Shown piece after piece: positions 4,518 to 64,000 of a DNA stretch of 64,000 nt. The notes beneath the pieces were generated by a model, which saw only the letters and a program-made list of their open reading frames with translations, was not told the DNA's origin and did no database searches. Origin of the DNA: Synechococcus sp. BSA11S. Its GTDB lineage: Bacteria > Cyanobacteriota > Cyanobacteriia > PCC-6307 > Cyanobiaceae. Position numbers and translations under genes: made by a program. Where the stretch lies: the NCBI RefSeq assembly GCF_014224355.1, contig NZ_VNWP01000007.1, positions 1 through 64,000 of the forward strand. The letters run 5' to 3'. Positions within the stretch are counted from its first letter, which is position 1, and each line of letters starts with the position of its first letter.

Positions 4518-6176
4518 ATGTCTGCCTGTCTCTTCTATCATCCTGACGGGTATACGACGGCGGGCAAGAATATCATGGGCAGACATGTTGCTGGAGAGTC
4601 ATTTTTGCGTGGTTATTTGCGCTATGGCACCTCCGCAGAGTTGTGGATTCATGTCGTTGATCCTGAGCATGCCAAGCAGTTCCGGGCCCATTTGGAAAAT
4701 GTAGGAGTCATTAAGTCAACTCACTTTATTGATCACGCCTCTTTAGGCCGCCTGGCCATGCCTGGATCCTTGTTCTATCCAAGCCCAGGCATTGGTGGTT
4801 TGGCCCTCAAGCGATCCTTGTTTGGCCATAATCTCTGGAGCCTTTGTGGAATTACCCACACCACGTGTTCTGCGGGGGCGATGGACTCGATCATCCAGAT
4901 GATGGTCAGTCCCATTCAGTCTTGGGATGCCTTGATCTGCACGAGTGAGGCCGTGAAGGGCAATGTTGGGCGATTATTGGATAGTCAAGAAGAGTTTTTA
5001 CGATCACATCTCGGAGCCACGAGAATTGTTCGCCCGCAGTTGCCTGTTATTCCTTTGGGTATTCACGCTCATGACTTCGCCTTTTCCGAGGCCATGCGAG
5101 CTGAGGCCAGGGCCTCCTGGAAGATTAAATCGAGCACTGTGGTTGTAATGTTTATGGGGCGGCTATCCTTCCATGCAAAGGCTCATCCGCTGGGTTCCTA
5201 TCAGGCGTTGGAGTTGGCTGCCCAGAAAACTGGGACAAGTGTGCTCCTGGTGGAGTGTGGTTGGCATGCGAATGATGCTATTTCTGGTGCGTTTGCGGAG
5301 GCGGCTCAGGTGGCCTCTCCCCATATCAAAGTGCTTAATCTGGATGGCCGAGATCCTCATCAGAGGAGCCAGGCCTGGGCGGGTGCAGACGTTTTTGTTT
5401 CACTCTCCGACAGCATCCAGGAAACTTTTGGCATTACGCCGATCGAGGCCATGGCCGCAGGGATTCCTGTCGTTGTCTCCGATTGGAATGGCTACCGCGA
5501 CACGGTGCGCCATGGCAAGGATGGGTTCCTTATTCCGACCCTGATGCCACCATCTGGACTAGGATGGGATCTGGCTCAGAGACATGCCCTCGAGACTGAT
5601 ACTTACGACCAGTACTGCGGGTATACCTGTTCTTTCGTCGCCGTCGAAGTCGACGCTGCGGCTGCTGCATTCGCTCGCCTATTTCAGTCCCCCGCGCTTC
5701 GGCGACAGATGGGGCAACAGGGTCGCCTTCGTGCGCAGGAACTGTTTGACTGGAGGACCATCATTCCACGATATGAGCAGCTCTGGCAAGAACTGGCGGA
5801 GCGCCGGACGTCTTCTGCGACATCGCAGGAATCAGCAAAATCGTCAGGCTCTTGGCCTGCGAGGATGGACCCTTTCAAGGCCTTTGCTGGTTACCCATCC
5901 GCCGTGCTCAAGCCTCAGACTCGTGTTGGGTTGGTCGATACGGATATCAAGAGCTCTATGAAGCGTTACCATGAATTAGCTTCCTTAGCGATGGTTGCAT
6001 TTGCATTAAGGGTCTTGCCGACTCATGAGGAAATAGCAGCCATTCTAGCGGCCGCTGCTCATGGTCCTCAACCTGCGCATCAGCTTTTGGCGACTCTACC
6101 ACTTGAGCGACGCGCTCTCGTGTTCAGGTCTCTTGTTTGGCTGATCAAGTTGCACTTGTTGCGCGTGGCTGACTGA
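4518..6176 (+). CDS. GT4-type glycosyltransferase (group 1)
   Basis: Protein of 552 aa. The C-terminal Rossmann half has the retaining glycosyltransferase pattern: GADVFVSLSDSIQETFGITP, then IEAMAAGIPVVVSDWNGYRD, including the E-x7-E motif that binds the nucleotide sugar, and HGKDGFLIPT downstream. The N-terminal half and the last 100 or so residues are not recognised. The last part looks helical and may be a separate domain. Base composition is visibly lower in GC than the flanking genes, and no other cell-surface polysaccharide genes lie beside it, suggesting separate acquisition. Sugar donor and acceptor are unknown. Confidence 0.8.
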   Translation: MSACLFYHPDGYTTAGKNIMGRHVAGESFLRGYLRYGTSAELWIHVVDPEHAKQFRAHLENVGVIKSTHFIDHASLGRLAMPGSLFYPSPGIGGLALKRSLFGHNLWSLCGITHTTCSAGAMDSIIQMMVSPIQSWDALICTSEAVKGNVGRLLDSQEEFLRSHLGATRIVRPQLPVIPLGIHAHDFAFSEAMRAEARASWKIKSSTVVVMFMGRLSFHAKAHPLGSYQALELAAQKTGTSVLLVECGWHANDAISGAFAEAAQVASPHIKVLNLDGRDPHQRSQAWAGADVFVSLSDSIQETFGITPIEAMAAGIPVVVSDWNGYRDTVRHGKDGFLIPTLMPPSGLGWDLAQRHALETDTYDQYCGYTCSFVAVEVDAAAAAFARLFQSPALRRQMGQQGRLRAQELFDWRTIIPRYEQLWQELAERRTSSATSQESAKSSGSWPARMDPFKAFAGYPSAVLKPQTRVGLVDTDIKSSMKRYHELASLAMVAFALRVLPTHEEIAAILAAAAHGPQPAHQLLATLPLERRALVFRSLVWLIKLHLLRVAD

Positions 6177-60688: not shown

Positions 60689-61567
60689 ATGCCCCTGACC
60701 CACCGCACCACGCCCTACCCGCACTGGGAATTCAGTGCTGCTGCCGGCGGTGATCTCCTGCGGCTGGTGCCGGAGCGGGGCGGCTTGCTCAGTGGCTGGC
60801 GCTGCAACGGGCGCGAGCTGCTCTACCTCGATGAGGCCCGCTTCGCTGATCCGGCCCTCTCCGTGCGAGGCGGCATGCCGGTGCTGTTTCCGATCTGCGG
60901 CAACCTGCCGGGCGATCTGCTGCCGCTGCCCCAGGGCTGCTTCACCCTCAGGCAGCACGGCTTCGCCCGCGATCTGGCCTGGGAGCTGGAGGAGCTGAAA
61001 GGCGGTGAGGGCGTTGGCCTGACCCTTGCCGACAGCGCCGCCACTCAGGCGATGTTCCCCTTCTCCTTCCGGCTGCAGCTGGAGCTGCGCCCAGAGCCTG
61101 GGGCCTTGGCGATCGCCGTGCTGGTGCACAACCCCGGGCCGGTGCCGCTGCCATTTGCCCTTGGCTTGCATCCTTACTTCGCCGTGTCCTCCCTGGCGGC
61201 GGCGGCGCTGGAGGGGCTGCCGGACGACTGCTTCGATCACGGCACCATGGCGCCCGCCGCCACTGCCCCGCTGCTGGAGCAGCTGGAGCAGGGCATTGAC
61301 CTGCTGGCAGAGCCCGGTGGTCCGGTGCGCTTGCTGGACCGTCAGGCGGGGGTGGCGCTGGAGCTCCAGGCCGAGGCCCCCTTCGACCTGGCGGTGGTCT
61401 GGAGCGATCCTCCCCGGTCGATGGTCTGCCTGGAGCCCTGGACGGCACCTCGGGGTGCCCTGCTCAGCGGTGAGCGGCGGCTGGAGCTGGCCCCCGGGCA
61501 GACCTGCCGGCTGGCCTGCCGCTATGGCCTGATCACCCGCCTTGATCGCCGGTCCACTCCCCGGTAG
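60689..61567 (+). CDS. Aldose 1-epimerase family protein (mutarotase)
   Basis: 292 aa, galactose-mutarotase fold. RGGMPVLFPICGNLPGD, QHGFARDLAWEL with the conserved His, LGLHPYFAV with the second His and the late acidic VCLEPWTAP motif match the family. Could act on free hexoses or, like YeaD, on hexose-6-phosphates. The stop overlaps the predicted NtcA-like site of the guanidine operon. Confidence 0.87.
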   Translation: MPLTHRTTPYPHWEFSAAAGGDLLRLVPERGGLLSGWRCNGRELLYLDEARFADPALSVRGGMPVLFPICGNLPGDLLPLPQGCFTLRQHGFARDLAWELEELKGGEGVGLTLADSAATQAMFPFSFRLQLELRPEPGALAIAVLVHNPGPVPLPFALGLHPYFAVSSLAAAALEGLPDDCFDHGTMAPAATAPLLEQLEQGIDLLAEPGGPVRLLDRQAGVALELQAEAPFDLAVVWSDPPRSMVCLEPWTAPRGALLSGERRLELAPGQTCRLACRYGLITRLDRRSTPR

Positions 61568-61605
61568 CGGTGGCCACATCGCCGCCGCGGCGTCGGGGTG
61601 ATGGT
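61564..61605 (+). promoter_or_regulatory. Candidate NtcA-type promoter of the guanidine operon (weak)
   Basis: GTA-N8-CAC (61564-61577) followed 22 nt later by GATGGT (61600-61605), one mismatch from TAN3T. A start near 61612 would place the guanidine-I aptamer at the very 5' end of the transcript, as expected. TTTGAT at 61605-61610 is an alternative -10. Confidence 0.35.
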
Positions 61606-61616
61606 TTGATGGCGGA

Positions 61617-61736
61617 AGCAGTTTCTAGGGTTCCGGTTGGCATCAGTTCGCCTTGGCGAGCCGGTTGCAGCGTCTGGTCCGAGAGAAGCTCACCGGGGTC
61701 ACCCGGTTGCACGGAGGGATAAAAGCCCGGGAGACC
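61617..61736 (+). promoter_or_regulatory. Guanidine-I (ykkC) riboswitch
   Basis: The conserved blocks of the guanidine-I aptamer occur in order: TTTCTAGGGTTCCGG (61622-61636), CTGGTCCGAGAGA (61674-61686) and ACGGAGGGATAAAAGCCCGG followed by GAGA (61711-61734). The class binds guanidinium and turns on detoxification or assimilation genes. CACGGAGG (61710-61717) inside the aptamer is complementary to CCTCCGTG (61747-61754) just downstream, a plausible switch helix. The regulated gene starts at 61762. Confidence 0.95.
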
Positions 61737-61761
61737 GCAACCCCCACCTCCGTGTTGTGCC

Positions 61762-62967
61762 ATGACAGCATCACCAGGCCCAGAAGGGGCCTTTGACCGG
61801 CCTGCCCAGGCCACACCTGCTGGCCGTCAGGGCTCCGAAGCCCTCGAGAAGGAGGGCCGCCTCCCCCTCACCGGCTGGCAGCAGGAGGTGGATCAGGGGC
61901 TGCGCTATGGCCTGGAGGCCGCCGAGAGCATCGTCGATCGGCGCATCTCCACCTTCTCGCGCGGGGAGTTGCCCCATTACGCGGGCATCAACACCTTCAT
62001 GAAGGCGCCCTACATCGAAGACGTGAACCGCGTCGGCGAGTTTGATGTGGCGATCCTGGGGGTGCCCCACGATTCCGGCACCACCTACCGCCCCGGTACC
62101 CGCTTCGGGCCCCAGGGCATCCGCCGCATTTCCGCCCTCTACACCCCCTACAACTACGAGATGGGGGTGGACCTGCGCGAGTCGATCAAGCTCTGCGACG
62201 TCGGCGACATCTTCACGATTCCCGCCAACAACGAGAAGAGTTTCGATCAGATCTCCAAGGGCGTGGCGCATGTGTTCGCCAGTGGAGCTTTCCCGATCAT
62301 CCTCGGTGGCGATCATTCGATCGGCTTCCCCACCGTGCGTGGCGTCTGCCGCCACCTGGGCGACAAGAAGGTGGGGATCATCCACTTCGATCGCCACGTC
62401 GACACCCAGGAGATCGACCTCGACGAGCGCATGCACACCTGTCCCTGGTTCCATGCCACCAACATGGCCAATGCACCCGCACCGAACCTGGTGCAGCTGG
62501 GGATCGGCGGCTGGCAGGTGCCGCGCGAGGGGGTGAAGGTCTGCCGGGAGCGGGGCACCAATGTGCTCACCGTGACCGACATCTGCGACATGGGCCTGGA
62601 GGCGGCGGCCCAGTTCGCGATCGAGCGCGCCACCGATGGCACCGACTGCGTCTACATCTCCTTCGACATCGACTGCATCGACGCCGGCTTCGTGCCCGGC
62701 ACAGGCTGGCCCGAGCCCGGGGGCCTGCTGCCCCGGGAGGCGCTGAAGCTGCTGGAGCTGATCGTGCGCAACGTGCCGGTCTGTGGCCTGGAGGTGGTGG
62801 AGGTGTCGCCGCCCTACGACATCAGCGACATGACTTCGCTGATGGCCACCCGGGTGATCTGCGACACCATGGCCCACCTGGTGGTGAGCGGCCAGCTGCC
62901 CCGCAAGGGGAAGCCCGCCTGGTTGCATGAGGCCTGCAACATGGCCGTCGATCAGGCCTGGAGGTGA
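61762..62967 (+). CDS. gdmH: Nickel-dependent guanidine hydrolase GdmH
   Basis: 401-aa ureohydrolase-family enzyme, longer than agmatinase (about 300 aa) because of an extended N-terminus. The dinuclear metal site is complete: His185 (GGDHSIG), H208-x-D210-x-H212-x-D214 (HFDRHVDT) and D302-x-D304 (SFDIDCID). The combination of a guanidine-I riboswitch upstream and hypA/hypB downstream is that of the cyanobacterial guanidine hydrolases (Sll1077 type), which split guanidine to urea and ammonium with Ni2+. Older annotation would say agmatinase. Urea produced can go to the urease in this window. Confidence 0.93.
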   Translation: MTASPGPEGAFDRPAQATPAGRQGSEALEKEGRLPLTGWQQEVDQGLRYGLEAAESIVDRRISTFSRGELPHYAGINTFMKAPYIEDVNRVGEFDVAILGVPHDSGTTYRPGTRFGPQGIRRISALYTPYNYEMGVDLRESIKLCDVGDIFTIPANNEKSFDQISKGVAHVFASGAFPIILGGDHSIGFPTVRGVCRHLGDKKVGIIHFDRHVDTQEIDLDERMHTCPWFHATNMANAPAPNLVQLGIGGWQVPREGVKVCRERGTNVLTVTDICDMGLEAAAQFAIERATDGTDCVYISFDIDCIDAGFVPGTGWPEPGGLLPREALKLLELIVRNVPVCGLEVVEVSPPYDISDMTSLMATRVICDTMAHLVVSGQLPRKGKPAWLHEACNMAVDQAWR

Positions 62968-62970
62968 GCC

Positions 62971-63363
62971 ATGCATGAGGTCGACATGACCAAATGCCTG
63001 CTGCTCTCCCTGCAGGAGTGGAAGCAAGGGCATGAACCCCATACCCCCGTGGTTGAGGCCGTGCATCTGCAGGTGGGCGACTTCACCTGCGTGGAACCGG
63101 AGGCATTGCGATTCACCTTCGCCGCCGCCGTGCAGGGCACCTGGCTCGACGGCGCGACCCTCCAGATCGACACCGTGCCTCTGCGCGCCCGCTGCCTGGC
63201 CTGCTCAACCGTTTACGCCCCTGATCCGGAGCAGGCCTACCGCTCCCCCTGCTGCGATCGGCCCATGGAGGAGATCGTCAGCGGACGTGAGCTGCGCATC
63301 CGCACCGTCGACTACAGCCTGCCGGCTCAGGCCTCCGCTTCCGCCGCCCTTCCCTCGCGCTGA
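62971..63363 (+). CDS. hypA: HypA-like nickel chaperone
   Basis: 130 aa. N-terminal MHE gives the nickel-binding His2. The zinc domain has C75-x2-C78 (CLACSTVY) and then adjacent C94-C95 (SPCCDRP) instead of a second C-x2-C. It ends with [14 protein letters not shown], as in HypA. It starts 3 nt after gdmH and precedes hypB by 4 nt. No hydrogenase is in view, so it most likely serves nickel loading of the guanidine hydrolase. Confidence 0.9.
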
Positions 63364-63367
63364 TCCC

Positions 63368-64000
63368 ATGCACATGCCTCTTCAGGACACGCTCGGCCTC
63401 AACCTGATGGCTGCCAATCAGCACCAGGCCGAGCACAACCGCGAGCACTTCGGCGCCTGGAATCTGCTCTGCCTCAACGTGATGAGCAGTCCCGGTGCCG
63501 GCAAGACCTCCCTGCTGGAGGTCACGATCACGGCGCTGGCTCCCCAGCTGGAGATGGCTGTGCTGGAGGGCGACATGACCACCCAGCTCGATGCCCAGCG
63601 CCTCGCGGCGGTGGGTGTGCCGGTGGTGCCGATCACCACCGGCCGGGCCTGCCACCTCGATGCCGCGATGGTGAGCGGTGGTCTGCGTCAGCTCCAGGCC
63701 CAGCTCAATCCGGCCACGCTCGACCTGCTCTGGGTGGAGAACGTCGGCAACCTGGTCTGTCCGGCTGAATTCGAGGTGGGCGAACATCTCAAAGTGGCCC
63801 TGCTGAGCGTCACCGAGGGCGACGACAAGCCGCTCAAGTATCCGGTGATGTTCCGTGAGGCCGATTGCGTGCTGATCACCAAGGTGGATCTGCTCCCGCA
63901 TCTGCCCGTGGCGGTGGAGCGGATCGAGGAACACATCCGCGCCGTCAACCCTGAAGCCGTGGTCTTTCAGGTGTCGGCCACCAGCGGCGCTGGGCTTGAG
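63368..64000 (+). CDS. hypB: HypB-like nickel-delivery GTPase, 5' part (runs off window)
   Basis: Open for 211 codons to the window end with no stop. SIMIBI GTPase: P-loop [27 protein letters not shown], the metal-site Cys-His in [26 protein letters not shown] and [10 protein letters not shown]. The N-terminal nickel motif CxxCGC of E. coli HypB and a His-rich stretch are absent. It works with HypA to load nickel, here probably into guanidine hydrolase. The last 20 or so residues are missing. Confidence 0.93.

Follow-up and report, generated by a model that had tools for sequence, protein, structure and literature searches.

The guanidine hydrolase Sll1077/GdmH of Synechocystis is established (PMC8390497 and PMC12186494). 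PMC10119275 describes a cluster of the sll1077 ortholog with hypA, hypB, transporter and Rieske genes, and already notes a ykkC riboswitch ahead of the Synechococcus guanidinase cluster. Guanidine-I riboswitches are described as usually being transcriptional ON switches (PMC12186494), and P0 is described as absent from guanidine-I aptamers. In the parts of the literature that were searched, neither a translational platform nor a P0 helix was described for guanidine-I riboswitches of cyanobacteria, which does not prove that no such description exists. We analysed a window of 64,000 nucleotides from Synechococcus sp. BSA11S. The guanidine-I riboswitch studied in it appears, with a probability of about 0.6, to have an expression platform that controls the initiation of translation, a mechanism suggested by its sequence and by predicted folds.

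The covariance model RF00442 (Guanidine-I) matched positions 61614-61735 of the forward strand with 77.6 bits (gathering score 63; E 2.8e-13), and this match, upstream of gdmH, was the sole one in the source genome. By this score the element, with helices P1, P2 and P3, is a clear Guanidine-I aptamer, and it would be expected to bind guanidine. When the Rfam consensus structure was mapped onto the window, P3 and the binding core fell at 61710-61730 (+), with P3 pairs C61710-G61730, G61716-C61728, G61717-C61727 and G61718-C61726 and the core ACGG at 61711-61714; the RF00442 alignment showed that the conserved core and P3 (ACGG...AAAAGCCCGGGAG) are present. The following gene (61762-62967, +) was assigned by NCBIfam to the agmatinase family (TIGR01230, 178.4 bits, cut-off 174.3; NF002564, 207.4 bits, below the cut-off of 302). 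Its designation as gdmH (guanidine hydrolase) is putative and rests on operon context and the literature. The nickel chaperone gene hypA (62971-63363, +; TIGR00100, 88.1 bits, at the cut-off of 88.1) starts 3 nt past the gdmH stop codon, and hypB, encoding a nickel-incorporation GTPase (63368-64000, +; TIGR00073, 265.1 bits, cut-off 121.2), starts 4 nt past hypA and runs beyond the window end, its remainder lying in L261. With gaps of 3 and 4 nt, translational coupling could possibly carry control from gdmH to hypA and hypB. The riboswitch precedes the agmatinase-family gene, hypA, hypB, and then glutamine-synthetase-like, ABC-transporter and Rieske genes. In L261 (genome G000, contig 40, just past the window), the glutamine-synthetase-like gene (713-2104) lies between hypB and the ABC-transporter genes, and a gene of Rieske ring-hydroxylating type (4787-5911) lies downstream of the ABC-transporter genes.

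The original prediction placed an 8-bp complementarity, its strands 29 nt apart, just upstream of the gdmH start, and its letters and coordinates were confirmed. CACGGAGG (61710-61717) is complementary to CCTCCGTG (61747-61754), with 61718-61746 between them, and CCTCCGTG ends 7 nt upstream of the gdmH ATG at 61762. An extra G-U pair (61709-61755) extends the helix to 9 bp. On the basis of complementarity and predicted folding, we propose GCACGGAGG (61709-61717, +) and CCTCCGTGT (61747-61755, +; ending 6 nt upstream of the ATG) as the 5′ and 3′ strands of an OFF switch helix. This helix belongs to the minimum-energy fold, with pair probabilities of 0.80, 0.93 and, for all other pairs, at least 0.98. 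The leader as a whole was not unusually stable (z -0.89; 32 of 200 shuffles folded equally well). Within the 5′ strand lie the core ACGG (61711-61714) and three P3 bases: the outer one, C61710, and G61716-G61717, which are two of the three inner ones. Because this strand contains both P3 bases and the core, the switch helix and the folded aptamer are mutually exclusive, in agreement with the earlier claim that pairing would break the aptamer. A start codon within CCTCCGTG (GTG) was considered and rejected, since in the window it is not in frame with the ATG, 10 nt away; the same GTG opens a long frame in two relatives, L104 and L106.

None of 200 composition-preserving shuffles of the window leader contained 8 bp of Watson-Crick complementarity to the aptamer strand of 13 nt, and none of the regions upstream of 49 other genes in the window, which were selected by their GC-frame signal, contained 6 bp. 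An earlier background of the 45 longest ORFs also gave 0 matches; it contained spurious ORFs, gdmH having been displaced by an antisense ORF. If the complementarity had arisen by chance in this window only, a frequent 8-mer would help to account for it, and CCTCCGTG does have five copies in the 64 kb window, 3 on one strand and 2 on the other. The 8-mer is therefore not rare in itself; the weight rests on its position and on recurrence in relatives. We sampled 400 genomes of the family, which we take to be Cyanobiaceae; RF00442 was found in 110, and all 110 loci were used. Pairing of at least 6 bp was present in 9 of 9 loci of the window's own genus, and CCTCCGTG itself in 14 of the 110 loci under four genus labels. 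These counts, with those from shuffles and gene upstreams, make chance complementarity very improbable.

The aptamer strand is invariant: ACGGAGGG was retained in all 110 family loci, each of which matched ACGGAGGG...A(A/G)AA(A/G)CCCGGGAG. Leader starts were corrected for L072, L097, L098, L104, L106, L116 and L074, and L125 starts with GTG. Some per-locus counts below are out of 109 because L084, whose CTAGGG block is altered, was dropped from P0 and terminator scoring. Watson-Crick runs of at least 5, 6, 7 and 8 bp to the ACGGAGGG region were found in 93, 62, 46 and 22 of the 110 leaders, as compared with 49.3, 20.3, 5.1 and 0.8 expected from composition-matched shuffles. Weighting by genus gave 5.0 of 20 for at least 7 bp, against 0.8 expected. 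Averaged over 19 genera, the z of the duplex energies was -0.92 (Stouffer -4.0, the genera not being independent). Of 95 distinct leaders, 62 paired best with the aptamer segment ACGGAGGG, whereas 32.8 did so after shuffling. In partition-function folding, the pairing probability of the aptamer strand with the leader exceeded 0.5 in 71 of 109 loci (23 of 109 for shuffled leaders, averaged over ten shuffles per leader). Sixteen forms, some of them nested, were seen among the 62 helices of 6 bp or more, from GGAGGG/CCCTCC up to the 11-bp GCACGGAGGGA/TCCCTCCGTGC, and 61 of them end 0-12 nt upstream of the ATG. This position is only modest support, because the leader is short and helices in shuffled leaders often end there too (0.67 of cases). 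Since varied parts of one invariant strand are matched at varied distances from the ATG, a single inherited motif seems hard to reconcile with these sequences.

Pairing of at least 6 bp was distributed unevenly among genera. It was found in all loci of the window's genus g1 (9/9), g37 (3/3), g48 (4/4), g24 (2/2), g51 (2/2) and g33 (1/1), at intermediate frequency in g6 (25/35), g31 (7/11) and g10 (3/5), and at low frequency in g5 (4/11), g35 (1/3) and g9 (1/9). It was absent from g18 (0/2), g19 (0/4), g47 (0/2) and g59 (0/3) and from the single loci of g25, g44, g49 and g54. Pairing probability exceeded 0.5 in 2 of 11 loci of g5, in 0 of 8 of g9, and in none of g18 (2), g49 (1), g51 (2) and g54 (1). 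The switch helix is thus above chance in the family but not universal, several genera being without it. The expectation that relatives keep the complementarity was borne out for 62 of 110 leaders and throughout the window's own genus, but not in g9, g5, g19 and g18, where pairing was weak or absent.

A C-rich, G-poor spacer of 23 nt (61739-61761, +) separates P0 (described below) from the gdmH ATG, and 54 of the 110 family leaders have such a spacer of 22 or 23 nt. Family leaders had a mean C content of 0.51 and G content of 0.12 (n = 110), versus 0.36 and 0.29 in the 49 window gene upstreams, and the distance from GGGAG to ATG was narrow (24-38 nt). Such a leader could have been selected for Shine-Dalgarno-independent initiation, aptamer pairing being a by-product and the aptamer regulating weakly or not at all. 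Leaders were C-rich even where they paired poorly, composition alone gave a mean pairing probability of 0.36 (0.56 was observed), and g5, g9, g19, g35 and g49 were no better than shuffles in mean z. However, composition-preserving shuffles reached 7 bp in only 5.1 of 110 leaders, against the 46 observed, and the retention of ACGGAGGG in every family locus would need a reason if regulation had been lost. We consider this explanation unlikely. As an intended composition control we took 18 GdmH-relative loci lacking the riboswitch, none of which had a match at the Rfam gathering score. The control failed: Prochlorococcus matches begin at residue 23, and 3 of 15 stretches lay inside a gene or did not show the leader. 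It was also spoiled by L231, in which a diverged aptamer appeared at a relaxed threshold.

Covariation of the two segments, which the original prediction offered as a check, amounted to one pair changed on both sides, and the genus-level test was null. A swap test was positive over 98 distinct sequences (0/5000), whereas over 19 genera (g18 left out) it was null (mean residual +0.09, median p 0.61). Column analysis used 42 aligned leaders picked by hand from 57 distinct leaders with CCGT, so that the percentage paired is biased; 8 leaders of g9 and 7 others, in which pairing extends over just 4-5 bp, were left out of the alignment, and eight rows (L010, L012, L016, L023, L026, L027, L099 and L105) were out of register. 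In these 42 leaders, 1 of 10 pairs showed a two-sided change, and the covariation score was 0.081 versus 0.067, with 36 of 500 shuffles as high. The sole variable flanking pair was G-C in 22, U-A in 6 and G-U in 2 leaders, and unpaired in 12. Covariation is weak and hardly testable here because the aptamer strand is invariant.

The original prediction reported neither a U-run terminator nor a clear Shine-Dalgarno, and both points held: no sense-strand terminator-like site was found in 61400-62100, and GGAG, GAGG and AGGA were absent from the window leader 4-20 nt upstream of the gdmH ATG. On the minus strand, a terminator-like site at 61728-61746 consists of the aptamer 3′ end read in reverse complement; no gene clearly needs one there. 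For comparison, RF00442 was found in 121 of 386 genomes of a phylum sample. Of these matches we used 43 of the 55 that belong to the class but not to the family, and 23 of 60 in a more distant branch, f31. A terminator was scored where the aptamer 3′ end forms a stem with a strand further downstream and a T-rich tail follows. After 3 of the 43 class members, in which the aptamer pattern was not found, had been dropped, terminators were detected in 37 of 40; on inspection by eye, the stems of L141 and L149 fall short of the threshold, and L154 seems to be without one. In branch f31 the proportion was 16 of 23. In the family it was 1 of 109, and that single hit, in L092, is intragenic, its end lying 73 nt beyond the aptamer. 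L154 (genome G520), outside the family, is seemingly terminator-less and has a short leader with an SD-like AGGAG. SD-like motifs were found in 22 of the 40 other class members (starts picked mechanically) and in 16 of 110 family leaders, all of genus g6, leaving 94 without (14 of 109 had one when starts were picked mechanically). In g6 leaders such as L100, L109 and L133, an SD-like AGAGG lies directly 3′ of the anti-core strand CCGTGCC; in this branch the switch may adjoin a Shine-Dalgarno.

Control might still be exerted on transcription or mRNA stability, through termination at a U-poor site, pausing, or access of a ribonuclease under the control of the same helix. This would agree with the usual mode of guanidine-I riboswitches noted above and with the wide occurrence of terminators in the class sample. 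However, the window has no sense-strand terminator-like site, a stem of 8-9 bp with a 29-nt loop and no T run is unlike a terminator, and the helix, where found, lies near the ATG. To our knowledge, cyanobacteria also lack Rho. We regard control of this kind as quite unlikely. The best reading is that the lineage as a whole has moved away from terminating transcription and now controls the start of translation, with guanidine as the ON signal. Of the two modes that the original prediction had left open, translation start or an unusual mechanism, the former is better supported, since the helix excludes P3 and the core and reaches at least 6 bp in 62 of 110 leaders, against 20.3 expected; pairing is weak or absent in several genera.

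Two strands flanking the aptamer, GCGG (61612-61615, +) and CCGC (61735-61738, +), were assigned from family conservation as the 5′ and 3′ strands of a putative helix P0, the 3′ strand lying within the switch-helix loop. Of 109 family loci, 103 have GCGG/CCGC, 2 (genus g18) have GCGT/ACGC and 4 have one mismatch, whereas GCGG was found in 41 of 436 control windows; the score was the best tetramer within a 16-nt window, which favours a match. GCGG is visible in the sequence of L084, which was not scored. A wider search for at least 4 contiguous flank pairs, with G-U allowed, was positive in 107 of 109 family loci and in 20 of 40 class members, the latter with no shared sequence. GCGT/ACGC is a compensatory change, and may represent one event because only 2 of 266 g18 genomes carry the riboswitch. 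Energy models did not indicate a stable P0: its pair probability was 0 in the free fold, and enforcing it did not lower the ON energy (-49.1 kcal/mol with P0, -49.4 without). P0 and the switch helix have interleaved strands, so only one can form in a nested fold and coexistence needs a pseudoknot; for this reason P0 may favour the ON state.

Some further riboswitches were seen in the course of the survey. The two of genus g18, a small-genome genus in which they are rare (L257 and L258), precede an NMT1-like substrate-binding protein gene in one case and a gene for a 182-aa protein without a Pfam match in the other. In Synechococcus sp. RCC307, L231 (1873-1979) holds a strongly diverged guanidine-I aptamer ahead of gdmH (24.0 bits at the relaxed threshold, gathering score 63), in which ACGG, CTAGGG and CTGGTCCGAGAG are altered and the P0 strands GCGG and CCGC are kept. 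This suggests either decay or an altered ligand. L226 shares with L231 the last 60 nt ahead of the ATG.

The proposed mechanism is as follows. Without guanidine, GCACGGAGG, carrying P3 bases and the binding core, would pair with CCUCCGUGU, which closely precedes the gdmH AUG; this would break the aptamer and make the 30S landing site double-stranded, turning gdmH OFF. With guanidine, the aptamer would fold first during transcription and be closed by P0 (GCGG/CCGC), and the 23-nt pyrimidine-rich leader would stay accessible to ribosomes that initiate without a Shine-Dalgarno, turning gdmH ON. The predicted OFF fold was ~18 kcal/mol lower than the constrained ON fold (-67.6 vs -49.1 kcal/mol, with ligand and tertiary contacts ignored). 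To offset so large a difference, ligand binding and tertiary contacts must contribute much energy, unless folding is under kinetic control. The order of synthesis suggests that the ON state would have to be captured during transcription, P0 being complete at 61738, ahead of 61747-61754. The latter segment was fully paired in the OFF fold and, because a local hairpin around the ATG can form, only partly free in the ON fold (0.31 unpaired). The mean unpaired probability of 61740-61761 was 0.42 in the OFF fold, 0.43 in the ON fold without P0 and 0.56 with P0; the predicted change in leader access is moderate. The ATG was mostly unpaired also in the OFF fold (0.88-0.91). In the constrained ON fold, it lies in the loop of a small local hairpin at 61752-61775.

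A broader proposal, to which we give an even chance, is that the family rebuilt its guanidine-I riboswitch by losing the terminator and gaining a P0 clamp, with strands beside a start codon without a Shine-Dalgarno repeatedly selected for pairing with the one invariant aptamer strand, yielding an SD-independent translational switch in which the aptamer core is itself the blocking strand. Start sites without a Shine-Dalgarno are common in cyanobacteria. If true, this would be a natural switch acting on such sites, and a clear case of a lineage in which one riboswitch class has exchanged its expression platform, while other cyanobacteria preserve the terminator form for comparison. With regard to nitrogen use, GdmH protein, more than gdmH mRNA, should then track guanidine in these strains.

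The riboswitch resembles terminator-type Guanidine-I riboswitches (ykkC subtype 1), including those of the other cyanobacteria studied here, in passing the RF00442 gathering score, in the guanidine-utilisation operon downstream and in the expected ON logic. It differs in that the family lacks the terminator, keeps 24-38 nt between GGGAG and ATG, has an anti-core strand near the ATG in many members, and has added P0 strands. Guanidine-II and guanidine-III riboswitches are likewise predicted to act on translation initiation (PMC12186494); however, they are other aptamer classes and expose a Shine-Dalgarno, a motif that 94 of the 110 leaders here lack. PRPP and ppGpp riboswitches (ykkC subtypes 2b and 2a) form P0 from the aptamer ends, as PMC6031431 describes, an arrangement that the putative P0 here would share, whereas the aptamer here scores as guanidine-I, with RF00442 the one family reported for it, precedes gdmH, and has a putative P0 of 4 bp beside a putative translation-type platform. 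Subtype 2 is also marked by altered residues in the binding pocket, where a pyrimidine takes the place of the conserved adenosine. The presence of P0 strands places this guanidine-I aptamer nearer to these PRPP and ppGpp relatives.
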